DNA from: Methylococcaceae bacterium
Lineage (GTDB): Bacteria; Pseudomonadota; Gammaproteobacteria; Methylococcales; Methylomonadaceae
Length of the DNA stretch: 6,096 nucleotides
Assembly: GCA_013140465.1 (NCBI GenBank)
Contig: JABFST010000498.1
Location: 1-6,096 of the forward strand
Direction of reading: 5' to 3'
Part shown: piece after piece, positions 513-6,096 of the stretch
Layout of the letters: the number at the start of each line of letters is the position of its first letter
Position numbering within the stretch: position 1 is the stretch's first letter
Translations under genes and position numbers: made by a program
The notes under the pieces: model-generated
Seen by the model: the letters and a program-made list of their open reading frames with translations, nothing else
Told to the model about the DNA's origin: nothing
Database searches by the model: none

Positions 513-974
513 TTACTGCGATTTAACCAATAAATCAGTCTTTAGTGGAATTTCGGGACAAGGCAAACCTGCTTGATTAGCTGTGTTAAAAACATATTGC
601 CGCCAAAACGGCCAAGTATTATGAACGGTATTAACGTGGGCAAATTCTTCTAGTGCTTTCTGTTCTACATCACCACTTAACTCATAATCAACTTGAAAAG
701 TGGCTTCGATTTGAAACACAGCATTTTGATCTTCTTGGAAGTCATTCTCTAAGTCGATAATCCGAACGCCTAACTCAACAAATACCCGAAATAATTTAAT
801 AGTTTTGTCTTGTCCACTTGTTTCGCAAGGCTCCACTTTTACGCGTTGTTTCGTCAATTGCCCTAAATTTTGTGATGCGGCTAGCTCACCAAAACGCTTT
901 AAATTGCTTTCATATAGAAGGATATTGATTAGCCTTAAGTTTTGTGCGGCTTGGGCGACTAGCTCTTTATCCAT
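513..974 (-). CDS. SecB-like chaperone of a toxin-antitoxin-chaperone (TAC) module
   Basis: The product is 153 residues, close to the usual SecB length. It shows the SecB pattern: an N-terminal beta/helix region (NLRLINILLYESNLKRF), the central strands with ELGVRIIDLENDF and FQIEATFQVDYEL, and the signature ALEEFAHVNTVHNTWPFWRQYV with a closing AGLPCPEIPL. The ATG at 974 lies inside the upstream antitoxin gene (8-bp overlap ATGGATAA), with AGGA about ten bases before it, so the two are probably translationally coupled. Classical SecB holds preproteins unfolded for SecA. In TAC systems such as Rv1955-Rv1957 of Mycobacterium tuberculosis, a dedicated SecB homologue instead binds the antitoxin's C-terminal addiction segment, helping it fold and escape proteolysis. 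The position directly after an MqsA gene with a long tail supports the TAC role rather than general secretion. Function is inferred; the family call is strong. Confidence 0.87.
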   Translation of the reverse strand: MDKELVAQAAQNLRLINILLYESNLKRFGELAASQNLGQLTKQRVKVEPCETSGQDKTIKLFRVFVELGVRIIDLENDFQEDQNAVFQIEATFQVDYELSGDVEQKALEEFAHVNTVHNTWPFWRQYVFNTANQAGLPCPEIPLKTDLLVKSQ

Positions 975-1530
975 AACCTAATTCCTGATGGTTTTTGCAT
1001 TCAGTTGCCACCGAATGTTCAGGGTTTTTTATCGGTATCGGTTGGCTGGTCAATTTTGGTTGAAAGGGAATCACGTTTTTATCGTACCCATTTGCCGTAA
1101 AGTTACGGATGGTTAAACCCGCATGATGCCCTAGCCAATCAGGTACGCAAACAGGTTGTTTTTCCATTGCCAACCGCATCAATTTATCCATTGCGGCACT
1201 TTGGGTAACTTCCCCTCGTTCATATTTGGAAAAGGCATTTGCACCGCCACCAAATGCCTGTGCGGCTTGTTGTTGGGTCAGACCTAATTGATTACGCAAG
1301 GCGACAATTTCAGCACCTGTCAACAGTCCGTCCGCTTTCCGCCAAGCATCACGCACCCGGCAATCATTGCGTTTAATTTGATCCGGCAAAATGACCTCTG
1401 CATGACACTGGGAGCAAACCGAATACTCAACGTCCACGCTTAAAGTCTGGCCTTTATAGTCAAACTGTTCTGCCTCGGTAAATGCTTGTAAGGCATCTGC
1501 ACCGCAATCCGCACAACTTAAATTGTTCAT
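967..1530 (-). CDS. mqsA: MqsA-family antitoxin with C-terminal chaperone-addiction-like extension
   Basis: The product is 187 residues. An N-terminal YgiT-type zinc domain has Cys6-x2-Cys9 and Cys39-x2-Cys42. Residues about 70-122 form an XRE-type helix-turn-helix (LTGAEIVALRNQLGLTQQQA, then FGGGANAFSKYERGEV), the DNA-binding domain by which MqsA represses its own operon. Ordinary MqsA is about 131 residues; here some 60 more follow, rich in aromatic and aliphatic residues (VPDWLGHHAGLTIRNF, NVIPFQP). Together with the SecB-like gene overlapping the end, this tail fits a chaperone addiction domain (ChAD) as described for TAC antitoxins. ATG 1530 is preferred over GTG 1545 because GAGAG lies eight bases before it and the zinc domain begins right after. 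GTG 1545 would overlap the toxin's stop. It should neutralise the MqsR-type toxin encoded 12 bases upstream. Confidence 0.88.
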   Translation of the reverse strand: MNNLSCADCGADALQAFTEAEQFDYKGQTLSVDVEYSVCSQCHAEVILPDQIKRNDCRVRDAWRKADGLLTGAEIVALRNQLGLTQQQAAQAFGGGANAFSKYERGEVTQSAAMDKLMRLAMEKQPVCVPDWLGHHAGLTIRNFTANGYDKNVIPFQPKLTSQPIPIKNPEHSVATECKNHQELGYG

Positions 1531-1541
1531 TTTTATAGCTC

Positions 1542-1876
1542 TCACGCTAAATGGAAAGAACCTATGCCTACATGCACCTCTCCGGTAGCAAGTAAACGTA
1601 ATTTCAAATAAATTTTGTCTATTGTTGAGTCTTCTGTTTGTTGATAATCACAGATATAAACATCATAGACGGCACTTCGTAATGTAAGCATTTTTTAAAC
1701 TGACCTGACACCAGTCCAGAAATGCACTTTTTAACATCCTCGCTGGTATAGCTAAGGTTTCTAATATCCGTGTTAACTTTGCGTCCTTCATAGCGAAAAT
1801 TGTCTCGATGGGCAGCTTGACGGATGTCATCTAACAAATAATGAGGTAGGTGTGTTTCTTTTATTGTATTAACCAT
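1542..1876 (-). pseudogene. mqsR: MqsR-family mRNA interferase toxin, frameshifted (or frameshift-expressed)
   Basis: Two frames together make one MqsR-like protein of 111 residues. Frame 0 from ATG 1876 gives residues 1-62 (THLPHYLLDDIRQAAHRDNF, ending SGQFKK). The -1 frame continues MLTLRSAVYDVYICDYQQ, then IYLKLRLLATGEVHVGIGSF to the TGA at 1542-1544. The junction is TTT AAA AAA TGC on the coding strand (A run at 1691-1696). One more A, or a P-site tRNA-Lys slip of -1, restores the frame. Without the shift, translation leaves the family sequence after residue 62 and stops at 1619-1621, losing the C-terminal strands that in E. coli MqsR carry catalytic residues (Tyr81 region). The antitoxin follows after 12 bases. 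A GTG at 1930 would add 18 residues with no family match, so ATG 1876 is chosen. Inactivation by a one-base deletion is the simple reading; recoding or transcriptional slippage is possible. Confidence 0.8.
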
Positions 1877-1882
1877 TATGGT

Positions 1883-1920
1883 TACTTTACTGTTATTTTG
1901 CAAGAACACATTGTAAAGTA
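1883..1920 (-). promoter_or_regulatory. Candidate promoter/operator of the mqsRA-secB operon
   Basis: A perfect 8-bp inverted repeat, TACTTTAC (1883-1890) and GTAAAGTA (1913-1920), is separated by 22 bases just upstream of the toxin ATG at 1876. On the minus strand a good -10 box TACAAT (1910-1915) lies inside the outer arm, and a second -10-like TAGAAT is just upstream. No convincing -35 is visible. MqsA-type antitoxins repress their own promoter through palindromes, so this is a plausible operator. It does not match the AACCT/AGGTT palindrome of E. coli MqsA. Confidence 0.45.
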
Positions 1921-2034
1921 TTCTAAACACTATCGCTCATCGGCAACGCATTAAGCAAGGCTTTAGCTTGCTACCAATTTGGCAAGCACAAAAAGACGGA
2001 GGGGAGGTCTTGCAAAATTATTAGACCATTACAC

Positions 2035-2238
2035 TTGGCCTTGGCGCAAAAAAATTGGGCAGTACAGCGCGAACCGCGTGATGCCCGTATTTTATTGGAA
2101 GCGGCGTTGGCTACAGACACGCAAAAACAGGCGGCTTTGCCTACCTTAACGTTTTTAGCTGAGAACCATGTGCAGGATGTACGCTTGCAAGTGTTAATCA
2201 CGCGCTTAAAAGCGGGCGGGGCTGTAGCTTCGAATTGA
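2035..2238 (+). pseudogene. C-terminal fragment of a probable TPR-repeat protein
   Basis: The plus strand encodes LALAQKNWAVQREPRDARIL, then LEAALATDTQKQAALPTLTF and VQDVRLQVLITRLKAGG before TGA 2236-2238. It is helical, with the A/L/N-W spacing of tetratricopeptide helices. It resembles from memory the C-terminal end of uncharacterised bacterial TPR proteins (NWxVQREPxDxRxLLEAA). There is no start codon with a ribosome binding site and no family-like sequence upstream of 2035, so the front of the gene is missing, probably replaced when the divergent TAC operon arrived. It lies on the opposite strand from the TAC genes and is followed by other relics. Function is unknown; treat the TPR call as tentative. 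Confidence 0.45.
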
Positions 2239-2351
2239 TACCGTTTTGCAGCAGCCACTTCAACACCATAGCGAAAAAACCACAAATACAACCCGCATTT
2301 GCTCCTGTGCTATCCCATCAAACAACCAACCCAATAACATAATTTAGGATA

Positions 2352-2510
2352 ATACTTGCCGAAAAGCGCGGCTTGAAACAAAGAGTAGCCGCACAATTGC
2401 TGGTCATCACCCAACCCAACATTTCCAACCCTGCCACTGGGCGGCTTTCTGGCTTTGCCTTTGATCGCCTTTACCATTGCCTGTCCGCTCCTGATACAGT
2501 ATTGAGATAA
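2352..2510 (+). pseudogene. Decayed XRE/HigA-type antitoxin remnant
   Basis: The frame ending at TAA 2508-2510 reads LAEKRGLKQRVAAQLLVITQ, then PNISNPATGRLSGFAFDRLY and HCLSAPDTVL. This follows the helix-turn-helix of HigA-like XRE antitoxins (pattern LxQxxAAxLLGITQPxVSxLxxGRLSGFSxDRLxxxLxAL), which usually follow RelE/HigB toxin genes. The N-terminal part ends at an in-frame TAA (2340-2342), no start codon or ribosome binding site is present, and key positions have drifted (LLGITQ became LLVITQ, SNLVRG became SNPATG). No toxin fragment was recognised between 2239 and 2340. It is best read as the surviving DNA-binding half of a lost TA pair, not an expressed protein. Confidence 0.6.
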
Positions 2511-2728
2511 GACTCAGCCTGTGTTTATGCGTCATATTTTTGACCAGTGGATAGTTAAGTTATATTCGCTTGTGAAACAATTTCGTTTCTTTTGGCGGAA
2601 TTTGGCAAAGTGCCTAGCATCACCCCGCTATTTGGCGGGTTTGCCCAAGCTACTTCTAAAGCCATTTTTATTAAATCCGCGAAGAATTGACCGCTTGACA
2701 AAACTACGGGTTATCAGTACAAATAATC
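2511..2728. other. Intergenic stretch upstream of brnT, no recognised gene
   Basis: No supportable coding sequence. An open frame from about 2521 to 2748 gives a basic, aromatic-rich peptide without family resemblance, and it overlaps the brnT promoter and start, so it is not called. A small hairpin, CCCGC/GCGGG with a six-base loop, is centred near 2632 and followed by TTT; it is too weak to call a terminator. The last 30 bases hold the brnT promoter. Confidence 0.4.
2695..2723 (+). promoter_or_regulatory. Candidate sigma70 promoter of brnT
   Basis: A perfect -35 TTGACA (2695-2700) is followed after exactly 17 bases by TACAAA (2718-2723), matching four of six -10 positions. The brnT ATG lies at 2729, only five bases after the -10. 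A transcript from here would start at or beside the start codon, making it leaderless. This agrees with the lack of a Shine-Dalgarno sequence before the ATG. Confidence 0.55.
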
Positions 2729-3016
2729 ATGCAAGATACTATTTTTGAATGGGACGACATCAAAGCCGCGACCAATTGGCGCAATCACGGTGTAACCTTT
2801 CCTTACGCGGTCAAAGCGTTTCGTGATCTTTTTGCGGTTGAATGGATAGACGACCGGGAGGATTACGGAGAAGAACGGATAAATTTGCTTGGCATGAGTG
2901 ACAGTGTCCTTCTCCATATAACCTACACCGAACGCGGTAACCGCATTAGACTCATTTCAGCCAGACGGGCAGAAAAACATGAACAAGACTACTACTACAG
3001 CGAAAATGCTACCTGA
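2729..3016 (+). CDS. brnT: BrnT-family ribonuclease toxin
   Basis: A 95-residue protein of the BrnT (DUF497) family, RelE-fold ribonucleases that inhibit translation and are held in check by a cognate antitoxin. Diagnostic pieces are in order: FEWDDIKAATNWRNHGVTF at residues 6-24 (usually FEWDxxKxxxNxxKHGV; the Lys before His-Gly-Val is Asn here), then AVKAFRD, then GEERINLLGMSDSVLLHITY, and the C-terminal TERGNRIRLISARRAEKHEQ with DYY. The length is normal and there is no internal damage. ATG 2729 is needed to include the conserved first strand. No ribosome binding site is seen; the promoter suggests leaderless translation. The antitoxin gene starts inside the end of this gene (38-bp overlap), giving a toxin-first operon as usual for BrnTA. 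The partner is an XRE protein rather than the ribbon-helix-helix BrnA. Confidence 0.92.
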   Translation: MQDTIFEWDDIKAATNWRNHGVTFPYAVKAFRDLFAVEWIDDREDYGEERINLLGMSDSVLLHITYTERGNRIRLISARRAEKHEQDYYYSENAT

Positions 3017-3395
3017 CGGAAAAGTCGTCGAGGTATTGAATGATGGGAGTGAGCAACCATTTCCTGACGCACCTCTGCGCCCTATGTCGGATAAAGAAAT
3101 CAACACGGAAGCAAAAGCGGATGTTGACGCGCAACCCATGACACCAGACGAATTAAAAACCGTGCGGCGTATCCCCCGTGTTAAAACTATACGCCGCGCT
3201 TTGGGCATCACCCAAGAAGAGTTTGCGGCAAGGTATCATGTACCGCTAGGGACTTTACGCGATTGGGAGCAAGGGCGCACTGAACCTGACCAGCCGACAC
3301 GGGCTTATTTAACCGTTATCGCCCACGATCCCGAAGGCGTGTACCGTGCGTTGCAACACTCACAGCCAACCATCAAGCAAAATCAGGCAGTTTAA
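2979..3395 (+). CDS. XRE-type helix-turn-helix antitoxin paired with BrnT
   Basis: A 138-residue protein. The first half (MLPDGKVVEVLNDGSEQPFP, then DVDAQPMTPDEL) is the likely toxin-binding region, which in this family sits before the DNA-binding part. Residues about 66-115 form an XRE helix-turn-helix: PRVKTIRRALGITQEEFAAR, then YHVPLGTLRDWEQGRTEPDQ and RAYLTVIAHDPEGV. Proteins of this shape occur after BrnT genes in place of the ribbon-helix-helix BrnA. It should neutralise the toxin and autorepress the operon; both are inferred. ATG 2979 overlaps the end of brnT by 38 bp and has no strong ribosome binding site, suggesting translational coupling. ATG 3009 is an alternative start that would drop nine residues. 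No terminator is visible before the resolvase relic. Confidence 0.87.
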   Translation: MNKTTTTAKMLPDGKVVEVLNDGSEQPFPDAPLRPMSDKEINTEAKADVDAQPMTPDELKTVRRIPRVKTIRRALGITQEEFAARYHVPLGTLRDWEQGRTEPDQPTRAYLTVIAHDPEGVYRALQHSQPTIKQNQAV

Positions 3396-3628
3396 AAAAC
3401 GAAGGTTTATTAGACACAGTAAGAAATATGTAAAAACAAGCGATTGCAAGTGCATTAATTTTATCTAGCAATGCAACCATGAAATATGGCTATGTACGGG
3501 TTTCTACCGACGATCAAAAAGCGGATTTGCAGATTAACGCACCCAAAAAAGCAGGGTGTGATTATATCTTCACCGATACAATCGGCGGCACGGTCAAAAA
3601 ACGCCCCAACACACCTATTGCCTTGACT

Positions 3629-3749
3629 CCTTGGAGGGTGTCGTAAAAGCCTGTATGTAGGTTGGGTTAGCGAAGCGTAACCCAACAAAATCAGAATGTT
3701 ATGCTTCATTACATGGTGAACAACCGACCTTTTACGACACCCTCCCTTG
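3629..3749. mobile_element. 111-bp MITE-like element with 5-bp target duplication
   Basis: Perfect 16-bp terminal inverted repeats, GAGGGTGTCGTAAAAG at 3634-3649 and its complement at 3729-3744, enclose a 111-bp non-coding element. The flanks carry a direct repeat CCTTG at 3629-3633 and 3745-3749. Removing the element and one CCTTG joins LDS to LRAGDVLIVW of the resolvase, which shows that it inserted into that gene. The interior carries a separate hairpin. No transposase is encoded, so it must have been mobilised in trans. The parent IS is not recognised. Confidence 0.85.
3661..3686. repeat. Palindromic repeat inside the 111-bp MITE
   Basis: A perfect 9-bp stem, GTTGGGTTA (3661-3669) and TAACCCAAC (3678-3686), has an eight-base loop GCGAAGCG. 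Repeats with this core (GTTGGGTTAGCGAAGCGTAA) are, from memory, scattered in many bacterial genomes. Here it makes up the middle of a transposed element. Confidence 0.65.
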
Positions 3750-3872
3750 CGGGCGGGGGATGTACTGATTGTTTGGAAGCTTGACCGCTTGGTGGTGGTG
3801 TCGTCTGACTTACAAGGGCGCGGGATAACCTTTCGATCACTGGGCATAGCCATTTACGCCAACATTTGTTAG

Positions 3873-4142
3873 GTTGCGGAAAAATGCGACTTAACCTACG
3901 GTGCTACGCGAAGCCCCGCTGGAACTTTTGCTTAAGTCACAAATTTAAACTATAGCCCGCCAAAACAAAGCAGAATGCGGGAACGTCCGCATAACGTTTA
4001 AGCAAACCTAAAGCCACATAAAAAAGCCTGTGACAAATTTTCGCGGGCTGTTATCGGTGCCATAACCTGCGGAAAGAAGATTCATTAATTCCATAGAAAG
4101 CCGCTATCTGCCACATTAAATTCGTGTTGCAGCCTTATTTTG
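3873..4142. other. Intergenic region before vapBC, no gene recognised
   Basis: No open frame with family resemblance was found on either strand. Three small structures can be seen. TAGGTT/AACCTA at 3870-3898 is an imperfect hairpin next to the resolvase relic. A dyad, ATGCGG and CCGCAT around GAACGT, lies at 3975-3992. A possible vapBC -35 box, TTGCAG, is at 4127-4132. The composition looks like degraded mobile-element or repeat DNA, but its origin was not identified. Confidence 0.4.
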
Positions 4143-4168
4143 GTGTATATTTTACTAAATTCATACAC
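4127..4168 (+). promoter_or_regulatory. vapBC promoter with candidate operator palindrome
   Basis: GTGTAT (4143-4148) and ATACAC (4163-4168) form an inverted repeat centred 25 bases before the vapB start, the usual place for the operator at which VapB or VapBC complexes repress their own promoter. A possible promoter is TTGCAG (4127-4132), 18 bases, then TTTACT (4151-4156), so the dyad would cover the -10. The ribosome binding site GGAG (4171-4174) follows. Confidence 0.5.
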
Positions 4169-4180
4169 ACGGAGATTCCG

Positions 4181-4375
4181 ATGCGAACTAATATCATGAT
4201 CGATGAAACATTAATGGCCGATGTTTTAAGCGCGACGGGGGTGAAAACCAAGCGCGAAGCAGTAGAACTCGGTTTAAAAACGTTGTTGATGCTAAAACAG
4301 CAAGAAGCTATTAAGGCGTTCAAGGGCCGATTAAAATGGGAAGGCGATTTGGAGCAAATGAGGACTGATGGATGA
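4181..4375 (+). CDS. vapB: VapB-family antitoxin
   Basis: The 64-residue product MRTNIMIDETLMADVLSATG, then VKTKREAVELGLKTLLMLKQ and a C-terminal GRLKWEGDLEQMRTDG is a typical VapB of the short DUF2191 type. Residues 1-45 form a ribbon-helix-helix: the strand RTNIMID would contact DNA as a dimer, followed by two helices. The C-terminal RLKWEGDL segment is the part that occupies the VapC active-site groove in this family. ATG 4181 has GGAG six bases upstream and begins exactly at the conserved MRTN. An upstream in-frame start at 4124 would add residues with no family match and is rejected. The stop overlaps the vapC start (ATGA), giving a coupled operon. A candidate operator lies immediately upstream. 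Confidence 0.93.
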   Translation: MRTNIMIDETLMADVLSATGVKTKREAVELGLKTLLMLKQQEAIKAFKGRLKWEGDLEQMRTDG

Positions 4376-4761
4376 TTCTGGTCGATTCCAGCGTCTGGAT
4401 CGATTATTTCAACGGCACAGAAACGCTGGCAACTAAAAAACTGGACAGATTACTAGGCGTGCAACCGGTATGCACCGGCGATTTAATCCTAGCGGAAGTG
4501 TTACAGGGCTTTCGGCAAGATGAGGATTATCAAGCGGCAAAAAAATTACTGTGCGCATTACCCATACACGCCATGTTAGGGACTGCGATGAGTTTAAAGG
4601 CTGCCGATAATTTCAGAAATCTGCGCAAACAAGGCATTACCATCCGAAAAACCATCGACACGATGATCGCTACTTACTGTATTGAAAACCACTTGGCATT
4701 GCTGCATTCAGACAAGGATTTTCTGCCCTTCCAGCAGTTTTTGGGTTTACAGCTTGTGTGA
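4372..4761 (+). CDS. vapC: VapC-family PIN-domain ribonuclease toxin
   Basis: A 129-residue PIN-domain protein of normal VapC length. The acidic metal-binding residues are in place: Asp5 in MILVDSSVWIDYF, Glu42 in LILAEVLQGF, Asp96 in TIDTMIATYC, and Asp114 or Asp116 in LLHSDKDF. VapC toxins cut specific RNAs, often tRNA or rRNA, using Mg2+ or Mn2+; the target here cannot be told from sequence. The start codon overlaps the vapB stop by four bases (ATGA), so translation is coupled and toxin output depends on antitoxin translation. No lesion is visible and the pair looks functional. Confidence 0.94.
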   Translation: MILVDSSVWIDYFNGTETLATKKLDRLLGVQPVCTGDLILAEVLQGFRQDEDYQAAKKLLCALPIHAMLGTAMSLKAADNFRNLRKQGITIRKTIDTMIATYCIENHLALLHSDKDFLPFQQFLGLQLV

Positions 4762-4868: not shown

Positions 4869-4967
4869 ATGAAAAAACCATTGCCAAACCTAACAACCGA
4901 TAAAGCAGCGGAAGACTTTATCGACAATGCCGATCAGGGCTACTCACTTAAAGCGGGACTGAGGAGC

Positions 4968-5001
4968 CGTTGGCTGAGCGGAGTCGTTGGCTGAGCGGAG
5001 T
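4968..5001. repeat. 17-bp tandem duplication
   Basis: CGTTGGCTGAGCGGAGT occurs twice in perfect tandem (4968-4984 and 4985-5001). The second copy is the left arm of the adjoining hairpin, so one arm of the palindrome has been duplicated while the other has not. Confidence 0.9.
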
Positions 5002-5044
5002 CGAAGCCGGCGGCGGGATTCGCTTCGACTCCGCTCAGCGAACG
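4985..5044. repeat. Large palindromic (REP-like) hairpin
   Basis: Arms at 4985-5007 and 5022-5044 pair over 23 bp with one mismatch around a GC-rich 14-base loop (5008-5021). The core GCTGAGCGGAGTCGAAG resembles, from memory, a palindromic repeat found in many unrelated bacterial genomes. It sits wholly inside the 141-bp element. Confidence 0.88.
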
Positions 5045-5279
5045 ACACCCAAACTGTCCCAGCTTAAACGGGAAGCCCCGATCAGACAGAATACGACTTA
5101 TCAGCTTTAACGACGACGCGCTTTGAATTTCAACCCAAAGATCGCAGCATTACCATGCGCCTATCCGAACCGCTACTGGAAGCGATTAAAAATGAAGCGG
5201 GGCGATCTGGGATGCCTTATCAACGTTTTATCCGCCAAACGCTAGAACAGGCGATACAGCTTAAAGGCTAAGATGAGAG

Positions 5280-5651
5280 ATTGTTTGGAGATTTGACTGA
5301 TTGGGTCGGTCGCTGTCACATTTGGTAACGGTGCTGTCTGACTTGCAAGGGCGCGGGTTGGCTTTCCGATCACTGACCGAAGCCATAGACACCGAAAGCG
5401 CAGCGGGGCGGCTTATGGGGCATACCCTCGGCGCATTGGCTGAGTTTGAACGGGCTTTGATTGTGGAACGAACACAAGCGGGATTAAAAGCTGCCAAAAA
5501 ACGCGGTACGAAACTAGGACGCAAGCCTTCGCTTTCTGACGATCAGCGGAAACACGCGCGGGAATTGCTTGATAAGGGCGAGAGTCCGTTAGCGGTGGCT
5601 AAGTTGCTCAATGTTTGCCGTGCTACTCTATATAATAATTTGAAAAGCTAG
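5280..5651 (+). pseudogene. Serine resolvase/invertase, C-terminal fragment
   Basis: Homology starts at IVWRFD (5280), directly after the antitoxin stop, and runs to TAG 5649-5651. The first codons include TGA 5298-5300 where the family has Arg in KLDRLGRS, so the fragment is both 5' truncated and carries a stop. The rest is open: LGRSLSHLVTVLSDLQGRGL, the catalytic-domain end (FRSLTEAIDTESAAGRLMGH), the long E helix (ALAEFERALIVERTQAGLKA) and a complete C-terminal helix-turn-helix (ARELLDKGESPLAVAKLLNV, then CRATLYNNLKS). It lacks the nucleophilic Ser and cannot recombine DNA. A product starting at TTG 5301 could in principle be a DNA-binding fragment. It overlaps in content with the relic at 3479-3872, so these are two copies, not two halves of one gene. 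Confidence 0.87.
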
Positions 5652-5677
5652 AAAATAGACAATTCACAGATTATAAT
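5649..5677 (+). promoter_or_regulatory. Candidate promoter of the tRNA-like gene
   Basis: A perfect -10 TATAAT (5672-5677) is preceded after 17 bases by TAGAAA (5649-5654), four of six matches to TTGACA. Transcription would begin near 5684, six bases before the tRNA-like gene. The -35 overlaps the stop codon of the resolvase fragment. Confidence 0.6.
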
Positions 5678-5689
5678 CACAAACAAAAC

Positions 5690-5773
5690 TAAGGGGTGGT
5701 GAAATGGTAGACACAACCAGTTACGAACTGGTCGGCGAAAGTCGTGCGGGTTCAAATCCCGTCCCCCCCACCA
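5690..5773 (+). tRNA. Class II (leucine-like) tRNA with ACG anticodon, possibly defective
   Basis: The parts fit a leucine-type tRNA. T8-G9 (5697-5698), D stem GTG/CAC with a loop containing GGTAGA, anticodon stem ACCAG/CTGGT (5716-5720, 5728-5732) with loop TTACGAA, so the anticodon ACG is at 5723-5725. A four-pair variable arm CGGC-GAAA-GTCG (5733-5744), T arm GCGGG-TTCAAAT-CCCGT (5746-5762), discriminator A5770 and encoded CCA follow. The long variable arm, D loop and A73 are leucine features, but ACG would read arginine CGN codons, and bacterial tRNA-Arg has a short variable loop. The acceptor is odd: 5' TAAGGGG faces CCCCCCC (5763-5769), giving four pairs. An alternative start at 5693 gives GGGGTGG (six of seven pairs) but costs the D stem. 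A promoter precedes it and a T run follows. It could be a pseudo-tRNA or a divergent one. Confidence 0.7.
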
Positions 5774-5780
5774 GTTTTTT
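5774..5780 (+). terminator. T run after the tRNA-like gene
   Basis: GTTTTTT directly follows the CCA end, with the T arm and acceptor GC pairs just upstream. This is a common arrangement at the end of a tRNA transcript, but no separate hairpin is present. Confidence 0.35.
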
Positions 5781-5782
5781 AT

Positions 5783-5974
5783 TTATCCATCATTAAATTC
5801 AGGATGAAGCATAGATATACAAAAATGTTCACAAAAAACAATTTCTCTATTTTGTATTTCACAAGCAGCTGAATTTAAAGTTAAGTCAGGTAGTCTGTCA
5901 TAGACAGGATACCATTGAAAGTAAATTTCACTCCCATTAAAGTTGTTTTTTATTTGCGTAGGCGTAAACCGCAT
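5783..5974 (-). other. Unrecognised 63-codon open frame, doubtful gene
   Basis: From ATG 5974 the minus strand reads MRFTPTQIKNNFNGSEIYFQ, then WYPVYDRLPDLTLNSAACEI and a Cys-rich end (FCEHFCISMLHPEFNDG). I do not recognise the family. No ribosome binding site is evident, and the first residues fall in GC-rich sequence unlike the AT-rich rest, which suggests a chance start or a relic end of a longer protein. It is listed because nothing else explains 5783-5974. Confidence 0.2.
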
Positions 5975-5998
5975 ACGCGCCAACTTAAGCCCCCAACC

Positions 5999-6023
5999 CC
6001 CTGTTTACCCTTGAAAAACAGGG
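5999..6023. repeat. Perfect 8-bp inverted repeat
   Basis: CCCTGTTT (5999-6006) and AAACAGGG (6016-6023) form a hairpin with a nine-base loop, next to a C-rich run. There is no T run on either side, so it is not called a terminator. It may be part of an interspersed repeat. Confidence 0.5.
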
Positions 6024-6071
6024 AGTGGCAACCCATATTATGAAGCTTTTAACTATCAGAGAGAAAGCCCC

Positions 6072-6096
6072 ATGACGTTGCCACAGCCATTAGACA
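6072..6096 (+). CDS. Possible start of a gene running off the window
   Basis: ATG 6072 opens MTLPQPLD to the end of the window, with GAGAG (6059-6063) nine or so bases upstream as a candidate ribosome binding site. Only eight codons are visible, so neither reality nor identity can be judged. Confidence 0.25.

Follow-up and report, generated by a model that had tools for sequence, protein, structure and literature searches.

Positions 5690 to 5773 of the window, by which we mean the whole 6,096-nucleotide stretch of Methylococcaceae DNA analysed here, carry a tRNA-like gene that joins a leucine-type class II body to an arginine anticodon, ACG, and in which the outermost three pairs of the acceptor stem are broken. 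We think it probable that this single extra gene is not a working mistranslator but the relic of a mobile, probably phage-type leucine tRNA, with a transcript that is predicted to be processed and charged poorly. We would not expect it to change how the genetic code is read.

A leucine-type body with an arginine anticodon

ARAGORN finds one tRNA in the window, on the forward strand at 5690-5773, and calls it tRNA-Arg with anticodon ACG, in agreement with the coordinates and anticodon of a first-pass annotation made from the letters of the sequence. The Rfam tRNA model RF00005 matches 5693-5766 with 36.4 bits (E 5.4e-05; cut-off 29), and the gene is real, far from a chance likeness. Among 200 shuffles of the 84-mer, 36 fold at least as stably (z -1.03), which makes its folding energy unremarkable. 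Its parts are as follows:

5690..5773, forward strand: tRNA-like gene with a leucine-type class II body, ACG anticodon and encoded CCA (ARAGORN, Rfam RF00005, Leu model)
5690..5692, forward strand: acceptor positions 1-3 (TAA), mismatched to C72, C71 and C70 (drawn cloverleaf, helix count)
5693..5696, forward strand: acceptor positions 4-7 (GGGG), paired (drawn cloverleaf, helix count)
5699..5714, forward strand: D arm, with a 3-bp stem and a Leu-type loop (drawn cloverleaf, helix count)
5716..5732, forward strand: anticodon arm, 5/5 pairs, loop TTACGAA, anticodon ACG at 5723-5725 (ARAGORN, helix count)
5733..5745, forward strand: long variable arm, a 4-bp stem with a GAAA loop, followed by U48 (cloverleaf, helix count)
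5746..5762, forward strand: T arm, 5/5 pairs (one G-U), loop TTCAAAT (cloverleaf, helix count)
5763..5773, forward strand: acceptor 3' strand of seven Cs, A73 and CCA (sequence, drawn cloverleaf)

The long variable arm with its GAAA loop, the Leu-type D loop, A73, the encoded CCA and the clear seven-base loop TTACGAA had all been described in the first-pass annotation, and the cloverleaf and helix count bear them out, the loop being closed by a 5-bp anticodon stem.

For isotype scoring we used two small covariance models, one of 14 Leu tRNAs (from this genome, relatives and phages) and one of 7 Arg tRNAs. The tRNA scores 61.1 bits with the Leu model, over 5693-5773, and 20.3 bits with the Arg model; the chimera of leucine body and arginine anticodon that had been proposed is real, and the leucine-type body holds up under the scoring suggested for it. 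With the Arg model, the host Arg(ACG), itself in the training set, reaches 92.0 bits. For comparison, the Leu model gives 65.3 and 51.8 bits to two Leu tRNAs of phage contigs that were kept out of its training set, 52.5-54.4 to four class II viral tRNAs whose anticodon is GTT, 28.3 and 31.4 to two Ser tRNAs of the host, and 25.6 to the host's Arg(ACG). Five of the 12 scored sources contain training sequences (L046 for Leu; L037, L039, L023 and L123 for Arg), so high scores are expected in those rows. The Leu score lies between those of the two held-out phage Leu tRNAs, which counts against reading the gene as a relic.

The identity elements point the same way as the models. The excerpted text of PMC9976931 gives A73, A15-U48, G18G19 and A20a as leucine elements in E. 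coli and A20 as the main arginine determinant. With positions assigned on the sequence, all of these leucine elements and the long variable arm are present, and position 20 is T, so that the arginine determinant A20 named in that text is absent. The anticodon is an arginine and not a leucine anticodon. Compared to bacterial and phage class II tRNA-Leu, of which the Leu(GAG) of relatives is nearest, the D arm, tertiary bases, variable arm, T arm and A73-CCA are alike, whereas the anticodon is ACG, the D loop lacks one base relative to that Leu(GAG), and only 4/7 acceptor pairs form. Bacterial tRNA-Arg(ACG) shares the anticodon and the loop N-TACGAA, yet differs in having neither the long variable arm nor the Leu-type body, in carrying A20 and in its fit to the Arg model.

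A class II body with another amino acid's anticodon is also the hallmark of the nematode nev-tRNAs, over 100 of which are described in six nematodes in the excerpted text of PMC4033280, one of them reported to decode GGG as leucine. The nev-tRNAs of that text are eukaryotic and numerous, whereas here we have one bacterial gene with a broken acceptor stem, known from its sequence. Disagreement between body and anticodon further places the gene beside those that tRNAscan-SE 2.0 flags for isotype/anticodon conflict as unusual and probably non-functional (PMC8450103, excerpted text), although the bacterial pairing of a Leu-type body with ACG recurred neither in the 311 genomes of the order nor in the genome and viral collections that we searched.

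These features are what would recommend the gene as a working mistranslator, charged with leucine by LeuRS (which in E. coli does not read the anticodon), so that CGN codons would be translated as leucine, possibly once TadA had edited the anticodon to ICG. The leucine determinants are present and the arginine A20 of PMC9976931 (excerpted text) is absent, the Leu model is preferred over the Arg model, and the loop TTACGAA differs by one base from the host Arg(ACG) loop CTACGAA. We nevertheless consider this improbable, given the acceptor stem and the lack of any conserved relative in the genomes and collections searched (both below); leucine at CGN beside a standard Arg(ACG) tRNA should also be costly.

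The acceptor stem

In the drawn cloverleaf, position 1-72 is T·C and both 2-71 and 3-70 are A·C, leaving 4/7 acceptor pairs, all four of them G-C. The other stems are complete (17/17 pairs), which brings the helix pairs formed outside the three mismatches to 21/21. The first-pass picture of the molecule is right except here, at the acceptor end, where the mismatches at positions 1-3 went unmentioned. Were three broken pairs placed randomly among the 24 helix pairs, the exact 1-3 block would arise with p = 1/2024. Scattered decay therefore accounts poorly for the damage, which a single local event at the 5' end would explain better. The first-pass annotation associated a plain pseudogene with random substitutions in all stems; what we see instead is damage confined to three adjacent pairs.

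The 5' strand consists of TAA and four Gs and faces an uninterrupted run of seven Cs. Because of this, the loss of three Gs from a run of seven is a simple candidate for the event. The same geometry bears on whether the break exists in the cell: a base-calling error in the G run of one MAG contig could be its source, in which case the gene would be an intact, ordinarily folding Leu-type ACG tRNA whose G-run bases were lost in assembly. A three-base homopolymer shortfall would explain all three mismatches. Three bases are, however, a large error in a run of seven, and a real contraction would give an identical picture; we hold an assembly loss to be unlikely.

That the mismatches coincide exactly with positions 1-3 also recalls mitochondrial 5' editing, which replaces this block of tRNA positions. 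A Thg1-like 3'-5' polymerase could in principle replace the three 5' bases after transcription and restore a full acceptor stem. Thg1-edited mitochondrial tRNAs share the acceptor mismatches at 1-3, but the Thg1 domain PF04446 was found in 0/41 genomes, that is, neither in the window's own (an 83% complete bin) nor in 40 relatives; as a control, the same search was positive in 1/14 named genomes, Methanosarcina acetivorans. Repair of this kind seems to us exceedingly unlikely.

The register that the Leu model prefers, and with which the gene reaches its 61.1 bits, is a shifted one: GGGGTGG (5693-5699) is set against CCCCCCC with 6/7 pairs and one T·C mismatch, and the D stem is given up. The computed energy of the shifted register is -25.0 kcal/mol against -23.0 kcal/mol for the drawn cloverleaf, making it 2 kcal/mol more stable, which is a further point against a relic. 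In either register one arm is lost: the acceptor stem has 4/7 pairs with the D stem and 6/7 without it, and a seven-pair acceptor stem together with a D stem does not form. For the mistranslator, the 6/7 pairs of the shifted register count in favour, and the 4/7 pairs of the standard register and the missing D stem of the shifted one count against. A related possibility is that a mobile leucine tRNA, its leucine determinants intact, was re-aimed at CGN, its ACG being editable, and that unusual maturation, by way of the shifted GGGGUGG register or a stem missed by the assembly, lets it insert leucine; we judge this unlikely as well.

The defect stands out within the genome. With 36.4 bits the gene has the lowest score of the 35 tRNAs found there, the next being 49.7, and of the 34 others (31 distinct sequences) one Met(CAT) has 6/7 acceptor pairs and the rest have 7/7. 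Since the acceptor stem is where RNase P, LeuRS and EF-Tu all work, we infer a loss of function.

Relatives and genomic surroundings

A pattern joining the Leu D loop to ACG, run over 311 genomes of the order, matched in one place, the window itself. A strict pattern that does match the window gave 0 matches in the genome and viral contig collections. Relaxed patterns matched 22 places in the genome collection, spread over 21 stretches, and 26 places in viral contigs (5 and 21); none of these 48 overlaps an ARAGORN tRNA. As a control, the relaxed pattern with GAG in place of ACG matched 17/18 Leu(GAG) loci, the one missed (L078) having GGCAGAC. In the D loop the patterns require either GGTAGAC or GGCAGAC, the GGCAGAC form having been run on viral contigs alone, and the collection scans may omit records of the genome to which the window belongs or of one very close to it. 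Viral contigs also gave 0 matches to two exact inner strings and to a pattern of D arm plus TTACGAA, and plasmids held no match to the gene or to 5640-5985. The homologue search that the first-pass annotation had called for thus returned no second Leu-type ACG tRNA from the 311 order genomes or the genome and viral collections. Among literature titles we found none that concerns a bacterial tRNA of leucine type carrying ACG, although one may still exist in print.

What did match was ordinary. The best 19 loci from other genomes comprise 15 ordinary Leu(GAG) and 4 Pro(CGG), most Leu(GAG) matches among relatives lying at 77-79% over about 64 bases. Six phage records match, the best being the Leu(TAG) of Pelagibacter phage HTVC011P at 78%. 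The 18-base string with the short D loop, TGGTGAAATGGTAGACAC, occurs in 0/60 relatives. A 22-base string running from GGGG through the D arm is present exactly in eight viral contigs, in every case within a tRNA (class II with a GTT anticodon in seven, Leu(TAA) in one). Because the D loop is unlike that of the relatives and the 5' part is identical in viral contigs, the comparison favours, without proving, a foreign and possibly phage-type source; the phage part draws on that one shared 22-base string, searched for in viral contigs.

Other origins were considered. A host-derived duplicate is not supported, the nearest tRNA in the same genome being Leu(GAG) at 77% over 64 bases, and an attachment-site copy of a host tRNA was rejected since the genome holds no near-identical partner. 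Short matches to the 5' part in C80 (own genome), G051 and G053 were examined and are not tRNAs.

The viral class II GTT tRNAs are about 100 nt long (L122:5006-5105, L123:1596-1695, L125:3136-3234 and L127:1607-1705, with the same sequences in L124, L126 and L128). They have a long variable arm, a Leu-like D arm, U33, seven acceptor pairs (TCTGGGG/CCCCAGA) and G73, and both strands of the anticodon stem vary among them (CACGG/CCGTG, CACGA/TCGTG, CTCAA/TTGAG). Their anticodons are not read correctly by ARAGORN. The tRNA-Asn of Pseudomonas phage pf16 matches them at 94% over 32 bases, and from their sequences they look like class II asparagine tRNAs.

Seven viral contigs with such tRNAs, in which GTT (Asn) and G73 stand beside a Leu-like D arm, imply that a Leu-like body need not mean leucine. 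By analogy, the window's gene could be a class II tRNA for arginine that ArgRS charges and that reads CGN in the normal way, and its ACG anticodon and A73 are compatible with arginine on the excerpted text of PMC9976931. The T at position 20, where that text puts the main determinant A20, and an Arg-model score far below that of the host Arg(ACG), a training sequence, speak against it, and we regard it as very improbable.

The window makes up the whole of contig C462, in a bin of 3.6 Mb and 507 contigs that is 83% complete. Among the 35 tRNAs that the search found in this bin are standard Leu tRNAs with GAG, CAG, CAA, TAG and TAA anticodons and an Arg(ACG), so the gene is not needed. It sits among transposable and toxin-antitoxin fragments:

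3-308: group II intron maturase fragment
967-1930, reverse strand: MqsA/MqsR-like genes (MqsR below Pfam's cut-off)
2729-3395: BrnT with an HTH partner
4124-4761: VapB and a PIN protein
5649..5677, forward strand: promoter-like site TAGAAA-17-TATAAT, 10/12 match, overlapping the stop codon of the upstream recombinase

The toxin-antitoxin genes stand in a row across 513-4761, where the frame at 513-974 (153 aa) is without a match in Pfam. At 3633-3745, within an apparent broken resolvase gene, lies a 113-bp element with perfect 17-base terminal inverted repeats, which reads as MITE-like and is matched in 42 other places of the genome, in eight of these at 100% over at least 112 bases. At the right end of the contig, about 5971-6096, lies a repeat that at least 9 other contigs of the genome share at 98-100% (10 candidates scored), mostly at contig ends. 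These two shared repeats indicate that the window belongs to the bin. A palindrome-rich repeat with 28-base arms, at 4938-5080, is found at 95-99% in seven other genome contigs.

The first-pass annotation credited the gene with a good promoter of its own. The match at 5649-5677 exists, but it is weak evidence: 5400-6096 contains 4 promoter-like matches where shuffles average 1.4 (sd 1.0), and the site overlaps the stop codon of a truncated serine recombinase, whose homology ends at 5637 or 5644.

The BrnT, MqsR-like and VapB-PIN genes share the window with the tRNA, and phage tRNAs with altered anticodon loops are proposed, in the excerpted text of PMC10264068, to evade tRNA-cutting nucleases. 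A decoy or spare tRNA that blunts such toxins, whether the neighbouring PIN protein or phage-defence nucleases, could be imagined on these grounds. Adjacency within a mosaic contig is weak evidence, however, nothing ties any of them to this RNA, and the pairing of a Leu-type body with ACG recurs in no relative among the 311 genomes; we take a decoy to be very unlikely. The first-pass suggestions of a working mistranslator, a decoy or an RNase target thus go unsupported, in view of the broken acceptor end, the singleton status of the gene and the absence of a selected relative from our searches.

Origin and significance of the gene

For the relic that we favour, the source would be an anticodon-shifted leucine tRNA, mobile and probably of phage type. 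The acceptor would then have been broken at its 5' end in one event, either a contraction of the G run opposite the intact seven Cs or a recombination junction, and RNase P, LeuRS and EF-Tu are predicted to act poorly on an RNA with such an end. Two further observations count against a relic: the other stems still pair and the tertiary bases are in place, as if under selection until recently, and there is a promoter-like site 5' of the gene, although this is weak evidence.

If the tRNA worked, it would be a bacterial counterpart of the leucine-charged misreading tRNAs of nematodes, acting beside standard Leu and Arg(ACG) tRNAs. As it stands, the gene illustrates how a conflict between body and anticodon can look exciting while the acceptor stem argues otherwise.
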